From positions 1 to 35,215 of the forward strand of contig CADEGL010000033.1 in assembly GCA_902826885.1 (NCBI GenBank): a DNA stretch of 35,215 nt, written 5' to 3'. Position 1 is the stretch's first letter. Every line of letters begins with the position of its first letter. This DNA is from an uncultured Alphaproteobacteria bacterium (lineage in GTDB: Bacteria; Pseudomonadota; Alphaproteobacteria; CADEGL01). The notes under the pieces were generated by a model that worked only from the letters and a program-made list of their open reading frames with translations, was not told where the DNA came from and did no database searches. Position numbers and translations under genes: made by a program. Positions 25,751 to 32,049 of the stretch are shown one piece after another.

Positions 25751-26791
25751 ATGAAACGGAGCATCCCGCCCATCCGGTTTTACCTGCGCGCGGCCCTTCT
25801 CGCGCTGTCGGCCGTCATCGCCACGCCCGTCGCGGCGGCCGATTCGGCGGTAATCGTTCTCTATCACCGCTTCGGCGAAAACCAGTACCCCACCACCAAC
25901 ATCCGGCTCGAACAGTTCGAGGCGCATCTGAAGGAACTGAAATCGGGCGGCTACACCGTCCTGCCGCTGACCGAGATCATGGCCGCCTTCGCCGAGGGGC
26001 GCGCGCTGCCCGACAGGACGGTGGCCATCACGATCGACGACGCGGTGGCCTCGGTCTACACGCGCGCCTGGCCGCGCCTCAAACAAGCAGGGCTACCGTT
26101 CACGCTGTTCGTCTCGACGGACGCGCACGACAGGCATTTCAAGGATTACATGACCTGGGACCAAATCCGCGAACTGAAGCAGGCGGGCGTCACCATCGGA
26201 AATCATTCCGTCACGCATGGCCACATGGTGGACGCGACGGCGGAAGAGAACGCGGCCGAGATCGAAAAATCCAACGCGCGCTTCAAGGCCGAACTGGGCG
26301 AGGCTCCCAGCTTGTTCGCCTATCCTTATGGCGAGTACGCGAACGCGCCGCGCGCGGCGGCCGAGAAGGCCGGCTTCAAGGCCGCGTTCGGCCAGCATTC
26401 CGGCGTGGCTTATGCGAGCGCCGACCGCTTCACGCTGCCGCGCTTCGCCCTCAACGAACATTGGGGTGAAATCGGACGGTTCCGCGAGATCGCGAACGCC
26501 CTGCCCTTGCCCATCACGGTGGTCGTGCCAGGCGACACGCGGGTGACGCAGCCGAATCCGCCGCCGTTAACGTTGGTGGTCTCGCCGGAGGTCGGACCGC
26601 TCACCAAGTTCGCATGTTACGCGCCGTCGAAAATCACGATGAACATCGACGGACACGACCGCGCGGCGAAGGCCAGCTTCGCACAGCCCTTCACGCGGGG
26701 TCGCAATCGGGTCAACTGCACCATGCCGGGCCCGGATGGGCGCTGGCGCTGGTGGGGTATCCAGTTTTACGTGCCGAACAAGACGCTCTAG
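25751..26791 (+). CDS. Secreted polysaccharide deacetylase (NodB fold)
   Basis: The 346-residue protein has a signal peptide (residues 1 to about 30, ending TPVAAADS) and a NodB-type deacetylase domain: VAITIDDAVASVY (Asp96, Asp97), NHSVTHGHM (His152, His156) and FAYPYGEY. The usual TFDDG motif is TIDDA, with both aspartates kept. The last 100 residues form a separate region with two cysteines (289 and 323) and a tryptophan-rich end. Substrate is unknown: N-acetylglucosamine polymers or peptidoglycan are possible. The frame is open far upstream, but ATG 25751 follows AGGGT and opens the signal peptide. It is one of only two plus-strand genes here and ends on a CTAG shared with the bax-like stop. 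Confidence 0.88.
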   Translation: MKRSIPPIRFYLRAALLALSAVIATPVAAADSAVIVLYHRFGENQYPTTNIRLEQFEAHLKELKSGGYTVLPLTEIMAAFAEGRALPDRTVAITIDDAVASVYTRAWPRLKQAGLPFTLFVSTDAHDRHFKDYMTWDQIRELKQAGVTIGNHSVTHGHMVDATAEENAAEIEKSNARFKAELGEAPSLFAYPYGEYANAPRAAAEKAGFKAAFGQHSGVAYASADRFTLPRFALNEHWGEIGRFREIANALPLPITVVVPGDTRVTQPNPPPLTLVVSPEVGPLTKFACYAPSKITMNIDGHDRAAKASFAQPFTRGRNRVNCTMPGPDGRWRWWGIQFYVPNKTL

Positions 26792-27750
26792 GCGCCGCGC
26801 GTGCCGGCCGGCGGGCGCCGCTCGAGCCGCGCGCCGTCGAACGCACGAAGCTGGTTCGACTGAATCATGGCTCGAACGTCGCGGATATAGTCGGGGCCGC
26901 GCTCCGAATATTTGCTGATGTTGGTCGCCAACTCATAGCCGTCCAGGGGACGGTTCTGCACGCGCAGGCCCGCGCGCCGGTCGCGGAATTCGCGATAGGC
27001 GTTGTGGGTGTTGAGATTGTGCACGTAGGCCCGCACCCCTTCCGCCAAACCGTTGAAGGCATGGATCTGATAGTCGTCATCCGAAAGTCCGACGGGCGTC
27101 ATGCCGGCATCGGGATTGAACACCTTTTGACCGAACAGCGCCTGACCCTCGCGCGCGAAACGCGACGTTCCCCAGCCGCTTTCGATCGCGGCCTGCGCCA
27201 TGGCGAGGGAGGGCGGCACCGCGTCGACCCGGCGCAGCAATTGCTGGAAGTTCACGCCGTCGACTTCGTAACGCTCCGCCAGACGTTCGAGCCATGCCTG
27301 CTCGTGCGGAGAGATCGTCTCGCCCGCGGCCAGACGCTGCTCAAGCGCGACCAATCGCGCGCGGTCGCGCAGAACGGCCTCGTTCGCGTCCAGCATCAGC
27401 GGCAACAGCGTGCGGAAGAAAAGCGCCTTTCGGTCCGCGGTGGACTCGATGGTGGCCAGATCGTCCGGCATCCGGTGCAAGAGGATGCGCGGCACGTCGA
27501 TCAGCCCTTCGCGCACGTCCTGCAGATGATAGTCCATCTGGGAATAGAGATCGGACAAGGCGTCGGCGCCGCGCACGTCGCGCACGAACATCGAGCCGTT
27601 GAGCGTGGCGCTGCCCTTCAGCGAGCCGCCCACGACGCCTGCCGCGTCGGGCGCGGTCAGGAAGATAGAGCCCGCGACGAGAATGGCGCAGACACCGGCG
27701 GAAAGAAGGGTGCGATCACGTAGGTTCGCCCGCAGCAACAACTGGCGCAT
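26788..27750 (-). CDS. Bax-like glucosaminidase-family peptidoglycan hydrolase
   Basis: The 320-residue protein has an N-terminal membrane anchor or uncleaved signal (residues 13-33), a central helical region, and a C-terminal glucosaminidase domain (about 165-300) with the catalytic Glu190 in QAAIESGWGTSRFAREGQALFGQ, then HAFNGLAEGVRAYVHNLNTHNAYREFRDRR. This is the pattern of the Bax/FlgJ group that cleaves the glycan strand of peptidoglycan. AGGAG precedes ATG 27750. It is convergent with the polysaccharide deacetylase, so a joint role in cell-wall or extracellular glycan turnover is possible but inferred. Confidence 0.87.
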   Translation of the reverse strand: MRQLLLRANLRDRTLLSAGVCAILVAGSIFLTAPDAAGVVGGSLKGSATLNGSMFVRDVRGADALSDLYSQMDYHLQDVREGLIDVPRILLHRMPDDLATIESTADRKALFFRTLLPLMLDANEAVLRDRARLVALEQRLAAGETISPHEQAWLERLAERYEVDGVNFQQLLRRVDAVPPSLAMAQAAIESGWGTSRFAREGQALFGQKVFNPDAGMTPVGLSDDDYQIHAFNGLAEGVRAYVHNLNTHNAYREFRDRRAGLRVQNRPLDGYELATNISKYSERGPDYIRDVRAMIQSNQLRAFDGARLERRPPAGTRGA

Positions 27751-28607: not shown

Positions 28608-29843
28608 ATGTTGTACGGATTACCGCGCGCCATGCAAAATGCATTTTCCGATGGAATCGCAACCATCCCGGCCCTCCCGGCGGCATCCGCCGCGCCCGTC
28701 GTGCAATGGCTCCTGGCCGAAGGGCGGCGCAGCACCGACATCCGCGCGTTGATCGCGGAGTTGGCGCGGCGCATGAACGACATCGGCGTGCCGGTCGCGC
28801 GCATCAACATCAGCATCCCCACCCTCCATCCGCTCGTCTATGCCCACACCTACCGGTGGACGCGGGGCATGGACCAGGCCGAGCAGACGCCGCGCAAGCA
28901 TACGATCCGCGACTCGCCCGAATATCAGGTCAGCCCGCTCAAGCCTGTATACGAAGAAAACCGGATTATCCGGCGGCGCCTCGACGTGCCCAGCCCGATC
29001 CTCGACTTTCCCATCCTGAAGGAATTTCAGGAACAGGGCCTGACCGACTACCTGGCCCTGCCAGCGCAAGGCCGGGTGGGACACCGGATGGCCGTGACGT
29101 GGGCGACCGACCGGCCCGGCGGTTTCGACGAGGACGACATCGCGCGGCTGGGCGGCATCCTTCCCGTGTTGAGCTTGGTGCTCGAAATCCACTCGCAGGA
29201 ATCGATCACGCGCACCTTGCTCGACACCTATATCGGGCGGCATTCCGGCACGCGCGTGCTGGACGGGTCGATCCGGCGCGGCAGCGGCGAGACAATTCAC
29301 GCCGCGTTATGGATGTGCGATTTGCGCGGCTCGACCGAGATGGCCGAGCATTTGCCGCGCGATGCGATGCTGGGGTCGCTCAACGCGTTTTTCGAAGCCG
29401 TCGTGGAACGTGTCCACAATCATGGCGGCGAAGTGCTGAAGTTCATGGGTGACGGCCTCTTGGCCATCTTTCGGCCCGACCTGGTCGGCGAAGGGCTTTG
29501 CGTCTGCAACGCCATCGATGCGGCCGACGAGGCATTCGGCGCTGTCGACACCTTGAACGCCGCGCGCATCGCGGTCGGCGAACCTGCGCTGCGATTCGGC
29601 CTGGGCTTGCATCTCGGCGACGTGATGTACGGCAATATCGGCGCGCCGGACCGGCTCGACTTCACGGTGATCGGGCCCGCGGTCAATCTGGTCTCGCGCC
29701 TGGAAGGTCTGACCAAGACCGTGAACCGGCCGCTGTTGATGTCGTCCGAATTTGCGAAGTTGTGCCCGCGCCCCACGCAGTCCCTGGGCCGCCACGCCCT
29801 GCGCGGCGTGGCGGAGCCGCACGAGGTGTTCGCTCTGTCCTGA
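28608..29843 (+). CDS. Class III adenylate/guanylate cyclase with sensor-like N-terminus
   Basis: The C-terminal half (about 225-411) is a class III nucleotidyl cyclase with all key positions: metal Asp238 (CDLRGST), purine-selecting Lys278 and second metal Asp282 (VLKFMGDG), Asp351/Thr353 (LDFTVIGPAVN), and transition-state Asn360 and Arg364 (NLVSRLEG). A single polypeptide would dimerise to form two sites. The first 225 residues are soluble and unassigned; the segment MAVTWATDRPGGFDEDDIARLGGILPVLSLVLE looks like the end of a GAF-type domain, so it may sense a small ligand. ATG 28608 has no Shine-Dalgarno; ATG 28632 is an alternative. It is plus-strand and ends four bases from the usp stop. 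Confidence 0.9.
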   Translation: MLYGLPRAMQNAFSDGIATIPALPAASAAPVVQWLLAEGRRSTDIRALIAELARRMNDIGVPVARINISIPTLHPLVYAHTYRWTRGMDQAEQTPRKHTIRDSPEYQVSPLKPVYEENRIIRRRLDVPSPILDFPILKEFQEQGLTDYLALPAQGRVGHRMAVTWATDRPGGFDEDDIARLGGILPVLSLVLEIHSQESITRTLLDTYIGRHSGTRVLDGSIRRGSGETIHAALWMCDLRGSTEMAEHLPRDAMLGSLNAFFEAVVERVHNHGGEVLKFMGDGLLAIFRPDLVGEGLCVCNAIDAADEAFGAVDTLNAARIAVGEPALRFGLGLHLGDVMYGNIGAPDRLDFTVIGPAVNLVSRLEGLTKTVNRPLLMSSEFAKLCPRPTQSLGRHALRGVAEPHEVFALS

Positions 29844-29847
29844 GCGG

Positions 29848-30336
29848 TCAGGTGAGGACGTCGATCTGCTCGTCGGTGAGGGCGCCCGGCACGATGGTCA
29901 TCGGCGTGTGCAACCGGCTCGAAAATTTTCCCGTGAGCGCCGCGATCAAGGGGCCGGGGCGACGGCCCTTGGCAGCACCCAGCACCAGGATCGAGATGCT
30001 GGGCTCCTCGTCCATCAGTTTGAGAAGCTGATCGCGGCGCGAACCCTTGCGGATGTAGAGGATCGGCATGTCGCCGGTCCATTCTCCCACGAAAGCCGAC
30101 AGTTTCTGCAGGCGCTCCTCGGCCGCCGTGCGCAACTCCTCCTCGCGCAGGCGCTCCGCGGTCGACCAATGCAACGCCTCGGGTTCGATCACGTAGAGGA
30201 GAGCCACCCGCCCTCCTGTGCGCACCGCGCGCCGGCAGGCATAGCGCAACGCCACCTTGAGCTCCTCGCTGTCGTCGACAACCACCAGGAAAACGCGCTG
30301 GGCGGATGCGGGTTGGCTTTGCGTCTGGTCGGACAT
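29848..30336 (-). CDS. Universal stress protein (UspA family)
   Basis: The 162-residue protein has a single Usp domain: VFLVVVDDSEELKVALRYACRRA at the start (beta-1 with the Asp of the nucleotide site), ALLYVIEPE, and the C-terminal ATP-binding loop LVLGAAKGRRPGPLIAALTGKFSSRLHTPMTIVPG. GAGGGG precedes ATG 30336. It ends tail to tail with the cyclase, four bases apart, and follows the TIGR02186-like gene by 31 bases, so it may be the last gene of the tauE operon. Confidence 0.9.
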   Translation of the reverse strand: MSDQTQSQPASAQRVFLVVVDDSEELKVALRYACRRAVRTGGRVALLYVIEPEALHWSTAERLREEELRTAAEERLQKLSAFVGEWTGDMPILYIRKGSRRDQLLKLMDEEPSISILVLGAAKGRRPGPLIAALTGKFSSRLHTPMTIVPGALTDEQIDVLT

Positions 30337-30367: not shown

Positions 30368-31129
30368 TCAGATGCGCCTGAACGCCACGCTTGCGCCCCA
30401 TCCGGCCGCCAGCGCCAGGAAGATGGCGATGATGCCGTAGAAGATGGAATGGGCGTGGGCGAAATACTGGATGTCCGCGCCCACGCCCGCGTTGCTGACG
30501 ATGAACGGAATTGTCTGCGCGCCCACGACCTGGCCTTCGCGGATGAAATAGACCTCGACCGAATAGGTTCCGATCGGCACGTTGGCGGGAATGTAAAAGT
30601 CGCTGCGGAACAGTCGGCCGGTCAGGAACGAGACCTTGAACGGCTCGGCGAAGTAGAGCTTCTGCCGCAGCTTGTTCCGGAGCAGGCCCTCGCGGAATTC
30701 CTGATTCTCTTCCTTCGGCACCGCGCGCTTGGCGGCCAGCCGCATATTCTCGAGACCGATGTCGTGGCGCTTCAGAATATCGGGTGGCGCCAGCTCGCCC
30801 AACGGGCGCGAGGTTGCGACCAAATAGAACAGCGGCACGCCGACGAACTGCAGCTCGTTCTCGTTTACCCAGATACCGGCGATACGTCCCTTGTGGCGGA
30901 CGGTGATGTCGCGCTCGGGGCCCTTCACCACGATGGCCACGTCGCCCTCGCCTTCCACCGCGCCGAAGACCACGACGTTCGTGCCCGTGAAACCCGCGGT
31001 GATGGCGACCAGATGGTCGGAGATGTCGGCGACCAGCGCTTGCGCCACGGCCGGACGCGCGGCCAAAGCGGGTGCCGCGAACGCCACCACCGCGACGAAA
31101 AGCAAGCGGAGGGTGAAGCGCGCGCTCAC
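30368..31129 (-). CDS. TIGR02186-like membrane-anchored periplasmic protein
   Basis: The 253-residue protein has a signal peptide (FVAVVAFAAPALAARPAVAQA), a predicted extracytoplasmic region of beta character (about 35-220), and one C-terminal membrane helix (SIFYGIIAIFLALAAGWGASVAF). It matches my memory of the alphaproteobacterial TIGR02186 family: LVADISDHLVAITAGFTGTNVVVFGA, and then FLTGRLFRSDFYIPANVPIGTYSVEVY. The function is unknown. The start is GTG 31129, overlapping the stop of the TauE/SafE gene in GTGA. This tight coupling suggests it is an accessory subunit of that permease. Confidence 0.83.
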   Translation of the reverse strand: MSARFTLRLLFVAVVAFAAPALAARPAVAQALVADISDHLVAITAGFTGTNVVVFGAVEGEGDVAIVVKGPERDITVRHKGRIAGIWVNENELQFVGVPLFYLVATSRPLGELAPPDILKRHDIGLENMRLAAKRAVPKEENQEFREGLLRNKLRQKLYFAEPFKVSFLTGRLFRSDFYIPANVPIGTYSVEVYFIREGQVVGAQTIPFIVSNAGVGADIQYFAHAHSIFYGIIAIFLALAAGWGASVAFRRI

Positions 31130-32049
31130 AGATCCACCGGCACGACGGCGATGGAATAAAGGTCGGCCGGCCGCACGACCAGGTCGAACAAAAGCTTGCC
31201 GCAGACCGCCAGCACCATGAGCGCCAAAAGCCCGCGCAACTGGGCCGCCGGCAAGCGCGCGCCGAAGCGCGTGCCGTACTGGGCGCCGACCACGGCGCCG
31301 ACGAGAAGGATGGCGGCCAGGACGATATCCACCGTCTGGTGGCTGACGGCTTGCAGGAACGTGACGTTGGCGGAGACGAAGATGATCTGGAACAGGGACG
31401 TGCCCGCGACCATCGCGGTCGGCATGCCCAGAAGATAGATCATCGCCGGAATCAGGACGAAGCCGCCGCCCACGCCCATGATGGCCGACAGGATGCCGAC
31501 GAAGAAGCCGATGCCGAACGGCAGAAGCGCGCTGATGTAAAGCCGCGACTTCTGAAACCGCAATTTGAGCGGCAAGGCTCGAACCCAGTTCGGGTGGCGC
31601 GTCCGGCGCGCGGGCGGCGCCTTGTTCAGGTGGCGCATGATGGCGCGCACGCTTTCCATCAGCATGAAAACACCGATCGTGCCGAGGAACAGCACGTAGG
31701 AGACGGAAATCGTCAGGTCGATCTGGCCGAGCTTACGCAGGATGCCGAACAGCCAGACGCCGAAGCCCGAGCCCAAGAGGCCGCCCACGAGAAGCACGCC
31801 GCCCATGCGGAAATCGACATTCTTCCGCCGCCAATGGGCCATGGCACCCGAGACCGAGGCCGCGATCAGCTCGTTGGCGACCGAGCCCACGGCCACGGGC
31901 GGAGGCACGCCCATGAAGATCAGGAGCGGGGTGAGGAGAAACGCGCCGCCGGCGCCGAACAGGCCCGAGAGGAAGCCGACCGCGCCGCCAAGCCCGAGGA
32001 TGACGAACGCATCCACGGAAACTTCGGCGATGGGCAGGTAAATCTGCAT
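31126..32049 (-). CDS. TauE/SafE family anion permease
   Basis: The 307-residue protein has about eight membrane helices in two related halves, each opening with the family motif: GAVGFLSGLFGAGGAFLLTP in the first and FFVGILSAIMGVGGGFVLIP in the second. TauE/SafE proteins move sulfite, sulfoacetate or other organosulfur anions across the inner membrane. The two halves are joined by a basic cytoplasmic loop (about 140-168). The substrate cannot be read from sequence. It is translationally coupled to the TIGR02186-like gene. The 126-base gap before it shows no strong promoter. Confidence 0.9.
   Translation of the reverse strand: MQIYLPIAEVSVDAFVILGLGGAVGFLSGLFGAGGAFLLTPLLIFMGVPPPVAVGSVANELIAASVSGAMAHWRRKNVDFRMGGVLLVGGLLGSGFGVWLFGILRKLGQIDLTISVSYVLFLGTIGVFMLMESVRAIMRHLNKAPPARRTRHPNWVRALPLKLRFQKSRLYISALLPFGIGFFVGILSAIMGVGGGFVLIPAMIYLLGMPTAMVAGTSLFQIIFVSANVTFLQAVSHQTVDIVLAAILLVGAVVGAQYGTRFGARLPAAQLRGLLALMVLAVCGKLLFDLVVRPADLYSIAVVPVDL

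Follow-up and report, generated by a model that had tools for sequence, protein, structure and literature searches.

A TauE/SafE-family membrane protein and an anchored Alph_Pro_TM protein form a near-obligate gene pair that probably encodes one two-subunit transporter

The window, the whole 35,215-nucleotide stretch of DNA that we analysed, carries on its minus strand a gene for a TauE/SafE-family membrane protein (hereafter TauE), followed by a gene for an Alph_Pro_TM protein (hereafter Alph). The pair, its parts and the gene directly behind it are laid out as follows.

31126..32049, minus strand: TauE/SafE-family membrane protein, the proposed transporter core, 307 aa, ATG start (PF01925, 162.4 bits; AF2 model; A3 orthologs)
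31915..32010, minus strand: TauE helix 1, residues 14-45, Gly-rich, broken and putatively re-entrant (model, charges and fold match)
31432..31527, minus strand: TauE helix 5, residues 175-206, Gly-rich (GVGGGF), the putative re-entrant counterpart (the model shows one continuous helix)
31126..31129, minus strand: GTGA overlap of the TauE stop and the Alph start (ORF coordinates; same four-base overlap in relatives)
30368..31129, minus strand: Alph_Pro_TM (PF09608; TIGR02186-like), the proposed accessory subunit, 253 aa, GTG start (Pfam and NCBIfam scores)
31043..31129, minus strand: putative signal peptide of Alph, about residues 1-29 (hydrophobic N-terminus and model helix 2-23; cleavage site from reading of the sequence)
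30488..31042, minus strand: predicted extracytoplasmic Ig-like sandwich of Alph with a helical insertion, about residues 30-214 (model, fold search and conservation)
30371..30484, minus strand: C-terminal amphipathic and transmembrane helix of Alph, residues 216-253 (Y231, G232, A239, G243, F250, R251), found as a TauE fusion in a SAR11-like family
29848..30336, minus strand: universal stress protein (Usp), 31 bases downstream of Alph, not an obligate part (PF00582, 46.3 bits)

The minus-strand order of genes is the end of a GlnD-like ORF, a MurJ-like ORF, TrpS, TauE, Alph, Usp and, further on, Nfu, where the names GlnD and MurJ come from reading of the sequence and the other neighbour names are Pfam results. 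The MurJ-like ORF lies two genes upstream of the pair. Two further ORFs were seen in this part of the window: a protein with a class III nucleotide cyclase domain lies beside Usp on the opposite strand (28608-29843, plus strand; PF00211, 25.1 bits, cut-off 21.9), and a Bax/FlgJ-type glucosaminidase-like ORF, named from reading of the sequence, lies at 26788-27750 on the minus strand. The source genome (3.87 Mb) contains both genes of the pair, with one Alph and with three further TauE homologs besides the partnered TauE.

The two genes had been described as overlapping by four bases, and their ORF coordinates indeed share 31126-31129 (GTGA), an arrangement that likely couples their translation. 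The same four-base overlap is present in 35 of 57 loci, 5 of these 57 being without a usable start, and in 68 of 106 loci of a second set, from which 4 of the 110 supplied loci dropped out without a scorable pair; the two sets share some genomes. Because the overlap recurs at this frequency in both sets, it is not due to chance.

The Alph protein scores 258.1 bits against PF09608 (gathering cut-off 24.5) in the Pfam search. It also matches the NCBIfam model TIGR02186 with 190.7 bits over positions 9-260 of 261, and since this near end-to-end match stays under the curated equivalog cut-off of 255.25, 'TIGR02186-like' is the right wording. The AF2 model of Alph (pLDDT 92.9, pTM 0.79) is composed of an N-terminal helix (residues 2-23), beta strands between residues 32 and 213, a helical insertion within the beta region (about residues 108-160), and two C-terminal helices (216-226 and 228-252). 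This model agrees with the original prediction of a signal peptide, an extracytoplasmic domain and a C-terminal helix, the signal peptide being assigned from sequence features. Ectodomain residues K80, G85, W87, N89, P99, P181 and G187 are invariant or nearly so. Across the whole protein, 26 sequences show no variation at G56, W87, P99, L173, P181, G187 or Y231, and K80 is kept in 25 of the 26. The anchor helix is followed by 2.1 Lys+Arg and preceded by 2.0 Lys+Arg that are balanced by 2.1 Asp+Glu (26 sequences), flanking charges that would place its end inside and its start outside.

Fold searches with the Alph ectodomain returned generic Ig/FnIII sandwiches alone (top Z 9.8, rmsd 2.4, 97 aligned), many unrelated entries lying within 1-2 Z of the top match. 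A sequence search for a specific relative of the ectodomain in the PDB gave nothing credible (3 matches, best E 0.17), and a search of phages for Alph gave no match. The second protein had been likened to an accessory subunit rather than an enzyme, a view that our results support.

The TauE protein matches PF01925 far above the gathering cut-off (32.6 bits) and over profile positions 2-237 of 237, and it is 42-74% identical to its orthologs in alignment A3. Its AF2 model (pLDDT 81.9) finds BacA/UppP as its best structural match, with a Z of 11.0, an rmsd of 4.6 and 234 residues aligned (next fold, Z 5.3; Foldseek E to BacA, 7e-3), a match that is to be read with the caveat that mostly helical models can score high Z by chance. 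When the A3 profile was run against the PDB, no chain was found up to E 10; the profile is narrow, missing also the three TauE paralogs of its own genome, and this null does not extend to the whole TauE family. None of these paralogs reaches E 1e-3 with the A3 profile, and the Alph partner therefore goes with one TauE subfamily.

According to an excerpt of its structural report, BacA crosses the membrane with six helices, contains two re-entrant pairs and has periplasmic termini, the assignment of sides being the authors' own proposal from the positive-inside rule (PMC5852022). The same report proposes that BacA binds the anionic head group through two arginines and through backbone amides in its two re-entrant loops (PMC5852022). 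The TauE stretches that match the BacA re-entrant loops are Gly-rich (GVGGGF type), and in all 26 sequences helices 1 and 5 have no D, E, K or R at residues 14-45 or 175-206. The numbers of Lys+Arg per sequence (26 sequences) were counted for segments that were drawn by hand: N-terminus, 0.0; loop 2-3, 3.2; loop 3-4, 1.0 (with 1.3 Asp+Glu); central loop, 11.0; loop 5-6, 0.2; loop 6-7, 0.04; loop 7-8, 2.6; C-terminus, 0.5 (with 1.9 Asp+Glu). Among these segments loop 3-4 is the least clear. By the positive-inside rule, this distribution of charges favours a topology in which the N-terminus is outside, helices 1 and 5 are re-entrant and the C-terminus is outside, which is the topology of BacA. 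For helix 5 we infer the re-entrant course, the model drawing a single continuous helix.

We searched 397 genomes of the phylum, requested with a completeness of 90 or more, separately for PF09608 and, with an E limit of 1e-60, for the A3 profile that represents the partnered TauE. PF09608 is present in 126 of the 397 genomes and the A3 TauE in 126 of the 397, and the two sets are identical. All 126 pair-bearing genomes belong to the window's class; 20 of the 271 genomes without a match are listed, and 126 is no measure of the share within that class. In 124 of the 126, TauE and Alph are adjacent on the same strand, while the other two genomes, G431 and G188 (L173, L174, L175, L176), keep both genes but on separate contigs, where neither gene has another copy of its partner next to it. 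The 126 include G341, in which the weak PF09608 match (19.8 bits, under the cut-off) is a fusion that is described below. These counts uphold the original view of the two genes as a unit, and the TIGR02186-like gene is not often found without TauE, as a TauE ortholog accompanies PF09608 in 126 of 126 genomes.

Further linkage counts rest on sets that share some genomes. TauE lies directly upstream in all 57 loci found by PF09608. From 540 confirmed places the best 80 TauE loci were taken, and in 76 of these Alph lies behind TauE. Among the four exceptions, L074, L097 and L137 meet a contig end, and L093 (8082-8999) has a TauE ortholog with no adjoining Alph in a genome with a complete pair elsewhere. 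The L074 genome has its Alph on another contig, and searches of the L097 and L137 genomes, both drafts with TauE at a contig end, found no Alph. In a Rhodobacterales-like family the pair is present in 30 of 30 fetched loci, and 373 of the 394 genomes of this family match the Alph of a Salipiger plasmid, each exactly once as listed, so that this search showed no extra Alph copies in informative contexts. Among plasmids and chromids, 17 records match, and the 5 that were inspected all have a 'sulfite exporter TauE/SafE' upstream. Laboratory strains that carry the pair include Ruegeria sp. TM1040 and a strain of Sinorhizobium meliloti. Three genomes (L071, L179, L180) have two TauE copies in a row, followed by one Alph. 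The pairing of TauE with Alph is thus near-obligate.

The order to which G341 belongs, which we label SAR11-like on account of genome size, has streamlined genomes of about 0.9-1.5 Mb, and a TauE ortholog is present in 70 of its 78 genomes. In family f128 (34 genomes), the TauE open frames are 308-332 aa long, and each of the 30 fetched loci has Alph behind TauE (two cut by a contig end). In family f63 (36 genomes), the TauE open frames are 351-386 aa long; all 13 loci inspected (L172, L214-L225) have no Alph gene next to TauE, and all 13 carry a TauE with an in-frame C-terminal extension that ends in a helix. The only part of the Alph profile that this helix matches is the final 30 to 40 positions. 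The extensions score 11.0-22.8 bits, and no other ORF among 17,110 entries (a few loci being counted twice) has a C-terminal-only match above 2.9 bits. Alignment of the f63 extension to the Alph profile by hhalign gives a probability of 96.3% and an E of 1.6e-9 over 37 columns, corresponding to Alph residues 216-252. A whole-genome search of G341, one f63 genome, found no separate PF09608 domain.

The Alph anchor helix is therefore naturally fused to TauE in the f63 loci inspected. Because these loci keep only that helix, and keep it as a fusion, the anchor helix is the part of Alph that goes with TauE. A periplasmic TauE C-terminus, as favoured by the charge distribution, suits this fusion and is required by it. 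The fusion also suggests that the Ig domain, or ectodomain, of Alph is dispensable in f63, which counts against the two-subunit picture.

The chromosomal contexts that recur around the pair are MurJ-TrpS-pair-Usp-Nfu, Nfu-...-BMP/ABC-PNP-pair and Sel1/PG_binding-pair, the Sel1/PG_binding protein lying upstream in several Rhizobiales loci. Ten of the recurrent chromosomal neighbours were annotated by Pfam and some others were labelled from reading of the sequence; among the recurrent neighbours named in this way there are no sulfur genes. Usp had been suggested as a possible part of the unit. Among 71 named loci that span at least 9 kb, 19 have Usp directly behind the pair and 17 have it about 9 kb away; it is not a required partner, and we rejected it as a third subunit. 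Of 41 relatives, 29 have the pair and 4 have Xsc, the gene for sulfoacetaldehyde in taurine catabolism, over its cut-off, and 25 of the 29 pair-bearing genomes are without Xsc over cut-off; in the source genome the best Xsc-like match reaches 252 bits versus a cut-off of 676.4. On these counts sulfonate catabolism was rejected as the role. Furthermore, NIR_SIR, indicating a sulfite or nitrite reductase, was found in 0 of the 78 genomes of the SAR11-like order, with 11 of 14 controls positive. The pair thus does not require Xsc, sulfite reductase or Usp as a partner.

The neighbourhood that could reveal the cargo is on plasmid pPABY1 of Salipiger abyssi (L234:461-6654), where the pair closes the series TctC-sulfatase-TctB-TctA-TauE-Alph, next to which a LysR gene is divergently oriented, and where the sulfatase scores 138 bits (PF00884). 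In Palleronia, a TctC gene precedes the pair. Excerpts from the literature describe TauE/SafE members as exporters of sulfite, sulfoacetate and 3-sulfolactate (PMC10413263), a TSUP member that is needed for alpha-ketobutyrate uptake (PMC12671195), and a TauE homolog of Pseudomonas that restored growth of an E. coli cysA mutant and is linked to sulfate uptake (PMC11535334). Because TauE/TSUP members also serve the uptake of alpha-ketobutyrate or sulfate, neither cargo nor direction follows from the family. Anion export, with sulfite as one candidate, was the function first put forward, and it fits the TauE family, the Gly-rich helices and the one plasmid sulfatase group. The evidence for a sulfur oxyanion, namely the reported family members and one plasmid gene run, is thin, and export of a small oxyanion is our best guess for the pair.

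We consider it probable that the pair encodes one two-subunit inner-membrane transporter, a single two-part machine, because the genes are almost always kept together and the anchor is fused onto TauE in the streamlined group. TauE would form the core, built as an inverted repeat in which two helices rich in Gly are re-entrant and both ends are periplasmic. Alph would be secreted and stay anchored through its C-terminal helix, which would pack against TauE and hold the Ig-like domain over the periplasmic side, where this domain may gate the core, stabilise it or receive cargo. The physical TauE-Alph complex, its topology and its gating are what we infer from these data. As a tentative guess, the cargo could be a small oxyanion of the sulfite/sulfate class, held at the Gly-rich re-entrant loops of TauE with the Ig domain on the periplasmic side, and exported. 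Counted against the two-subunit transporter are the two genomes with unlinked genes, the two drafts in which no Alph was found, and the rmsd of 4.6 in the BacA match.

Two subunits would also be retained if the pair were a housekeeping transporter, conserved across Alphaproteobacteria including the streamlined lineages, in which an anchored Ig-like subunit controls a BacA-like inverted-repeat core and the cargo is a non-sulfur anion or a lipid-linked phosphate of central envelope physiology, which we regard as rather unlikely. TauE-family proteins elsewhere act without such a partner, and the source genome has three further TauE homologs and one Alph, as would be expected if TauE were an ordinary lone permease and Alph, perhaps an independent sensor of envelope stress, only shared the operon with it. 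However, the same 126 genomes hold both genes, including the two in which the genes are unlinked, the Alph anchor helix is fused to TauE in f63, and the failure of the genome's own paralogs to reach E 1e-3 with the A3 profile ties the partner to one TauE subfamily, making a lone permease unlikely. Handling of a lipid-linked phosphate, for instance as an undecaprenyl-phosphate carrier, is raised by the BacA-like fold and by MurJ/PodJ-like neighbours: no structural match other than BacA is prominent, the second gene upstream is a MurJ-like ORF, a Sel1/PG_binding protein is upstream in several Rhizobiales loci, and 25 of 26 sequences keep TauE Ser28, as 25 of 26 keep Arg272, residues that may correspond in position to BacA Ser27 and Arg261. 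DedA (PF09335), presumably a polyprenyl-phosphate carrier family, is nevertheless present in 74 of the 78 genomes of the SAR11-like order (DUF368 in 0 of the 78) and leaves no gap to fill, so that the pair was rejected as the missing polyprenyl-phosphate carrier. In addition, TauE helices 1 and 5, being free of Asp, Glu, Lys and Arg, offer no counterpart of BacA Glu17, Glu21 and Arg174, and a role in lipid-linked phosphate handling is highly unlikely.

Import of sulfate or of another sulfur source for assimilation draws on the excerpt in which a Pseudomonas TauE homolog rescued growth of the E. coli cysA mutant (PMC11535334), but the SAR11-like order, with NIR_SIR in 0 of 78 genomes (11 of 14 controls), keeps the TauE ortholog in 70 of the same 78; we rejected this role and hold it to be very improbable. 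The pair may instead act as a housekeeping overflow valve through which organic weak acids or some other metabolite anion leave the cell, in line with the TSUP member needed for alpha-ketobutyrate uptake (PMC12671195, excerpt) and with annotated recurrent contexts that are without sulfur genes. Nothing specific counts against this role; no organic-acid gene is prominent among the annotated neighbours either, and we think it quite unlikely.

For the preferred reading of a two-subunit transporter, a full-text literature search for TIGR02186, PF09608 and Alph_Pro_TM found no paper, none of the matches listed concerned the TauE-Alph pair or the fusion as judged by title or abstract start, and a search with guessed S. 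meliloti locus tags gave podJ2 alone. TauE/SafE proteins are usually treated as single-subunit permeases. Both families are known from databases, one as a permease and the other as a hypothetical protein, and together they probably make a TauE-type transporter with a dedicated membrane-anchored subunit. The fusion points to a likely contact between the Alph anchor helix and the C-terminus of TauE, and a dedicated partner together with a natural fusion offers a direct way into a transporter family that has been little characterised. Even genomes of 0.9-1.5 Mb retain the pair or the fusion, which makes the function worth finding, and G188 and G431, with their unlinked genes, are natural cases for whether TauE and Alph still act together.

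Among known systems, MamO, which has a TauE-like C-terminal domain, is a weak match of the core (E 1.1e-5), and MamO identity was set aside at 24 bits versus a cut-off of 800, over only positions 534-648 of a 648-position model. The C2-sulfonate TauE system of Cupriavidus necator differs in its Xsc, for which the source genome has no match over cut-off. To BacA/UppP, an undecaprenyl-pyrophosphate phosphatase, TauE may be alike in its predicted fold and probable topology, with two re-entrant elements, six crossing helices and periplasmic ends; the catalytic Glu17, Glu21 and Arg174 described in an excerpt of the BacA report (PMC5852022) are without counterpart in TauE helices 1 and 5, and the possible likeness is a structural one. 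The accessory subunit is a member of PF09608, a family that, like TIGR02186, is named merely as putative transmembrane or hypothetical, and its score below the TIGR02186 equivalog cut-off is what one would expect of a divergent member. By its Pfam score the core is a member of the TauE/SafE (TSUP, DUF81) permeases of PF01925, within which it represents one subfamily that has a dedicated partner and that is accompanied by Xsc over cut-off in only 4 of 29 pair-bearing genomes.
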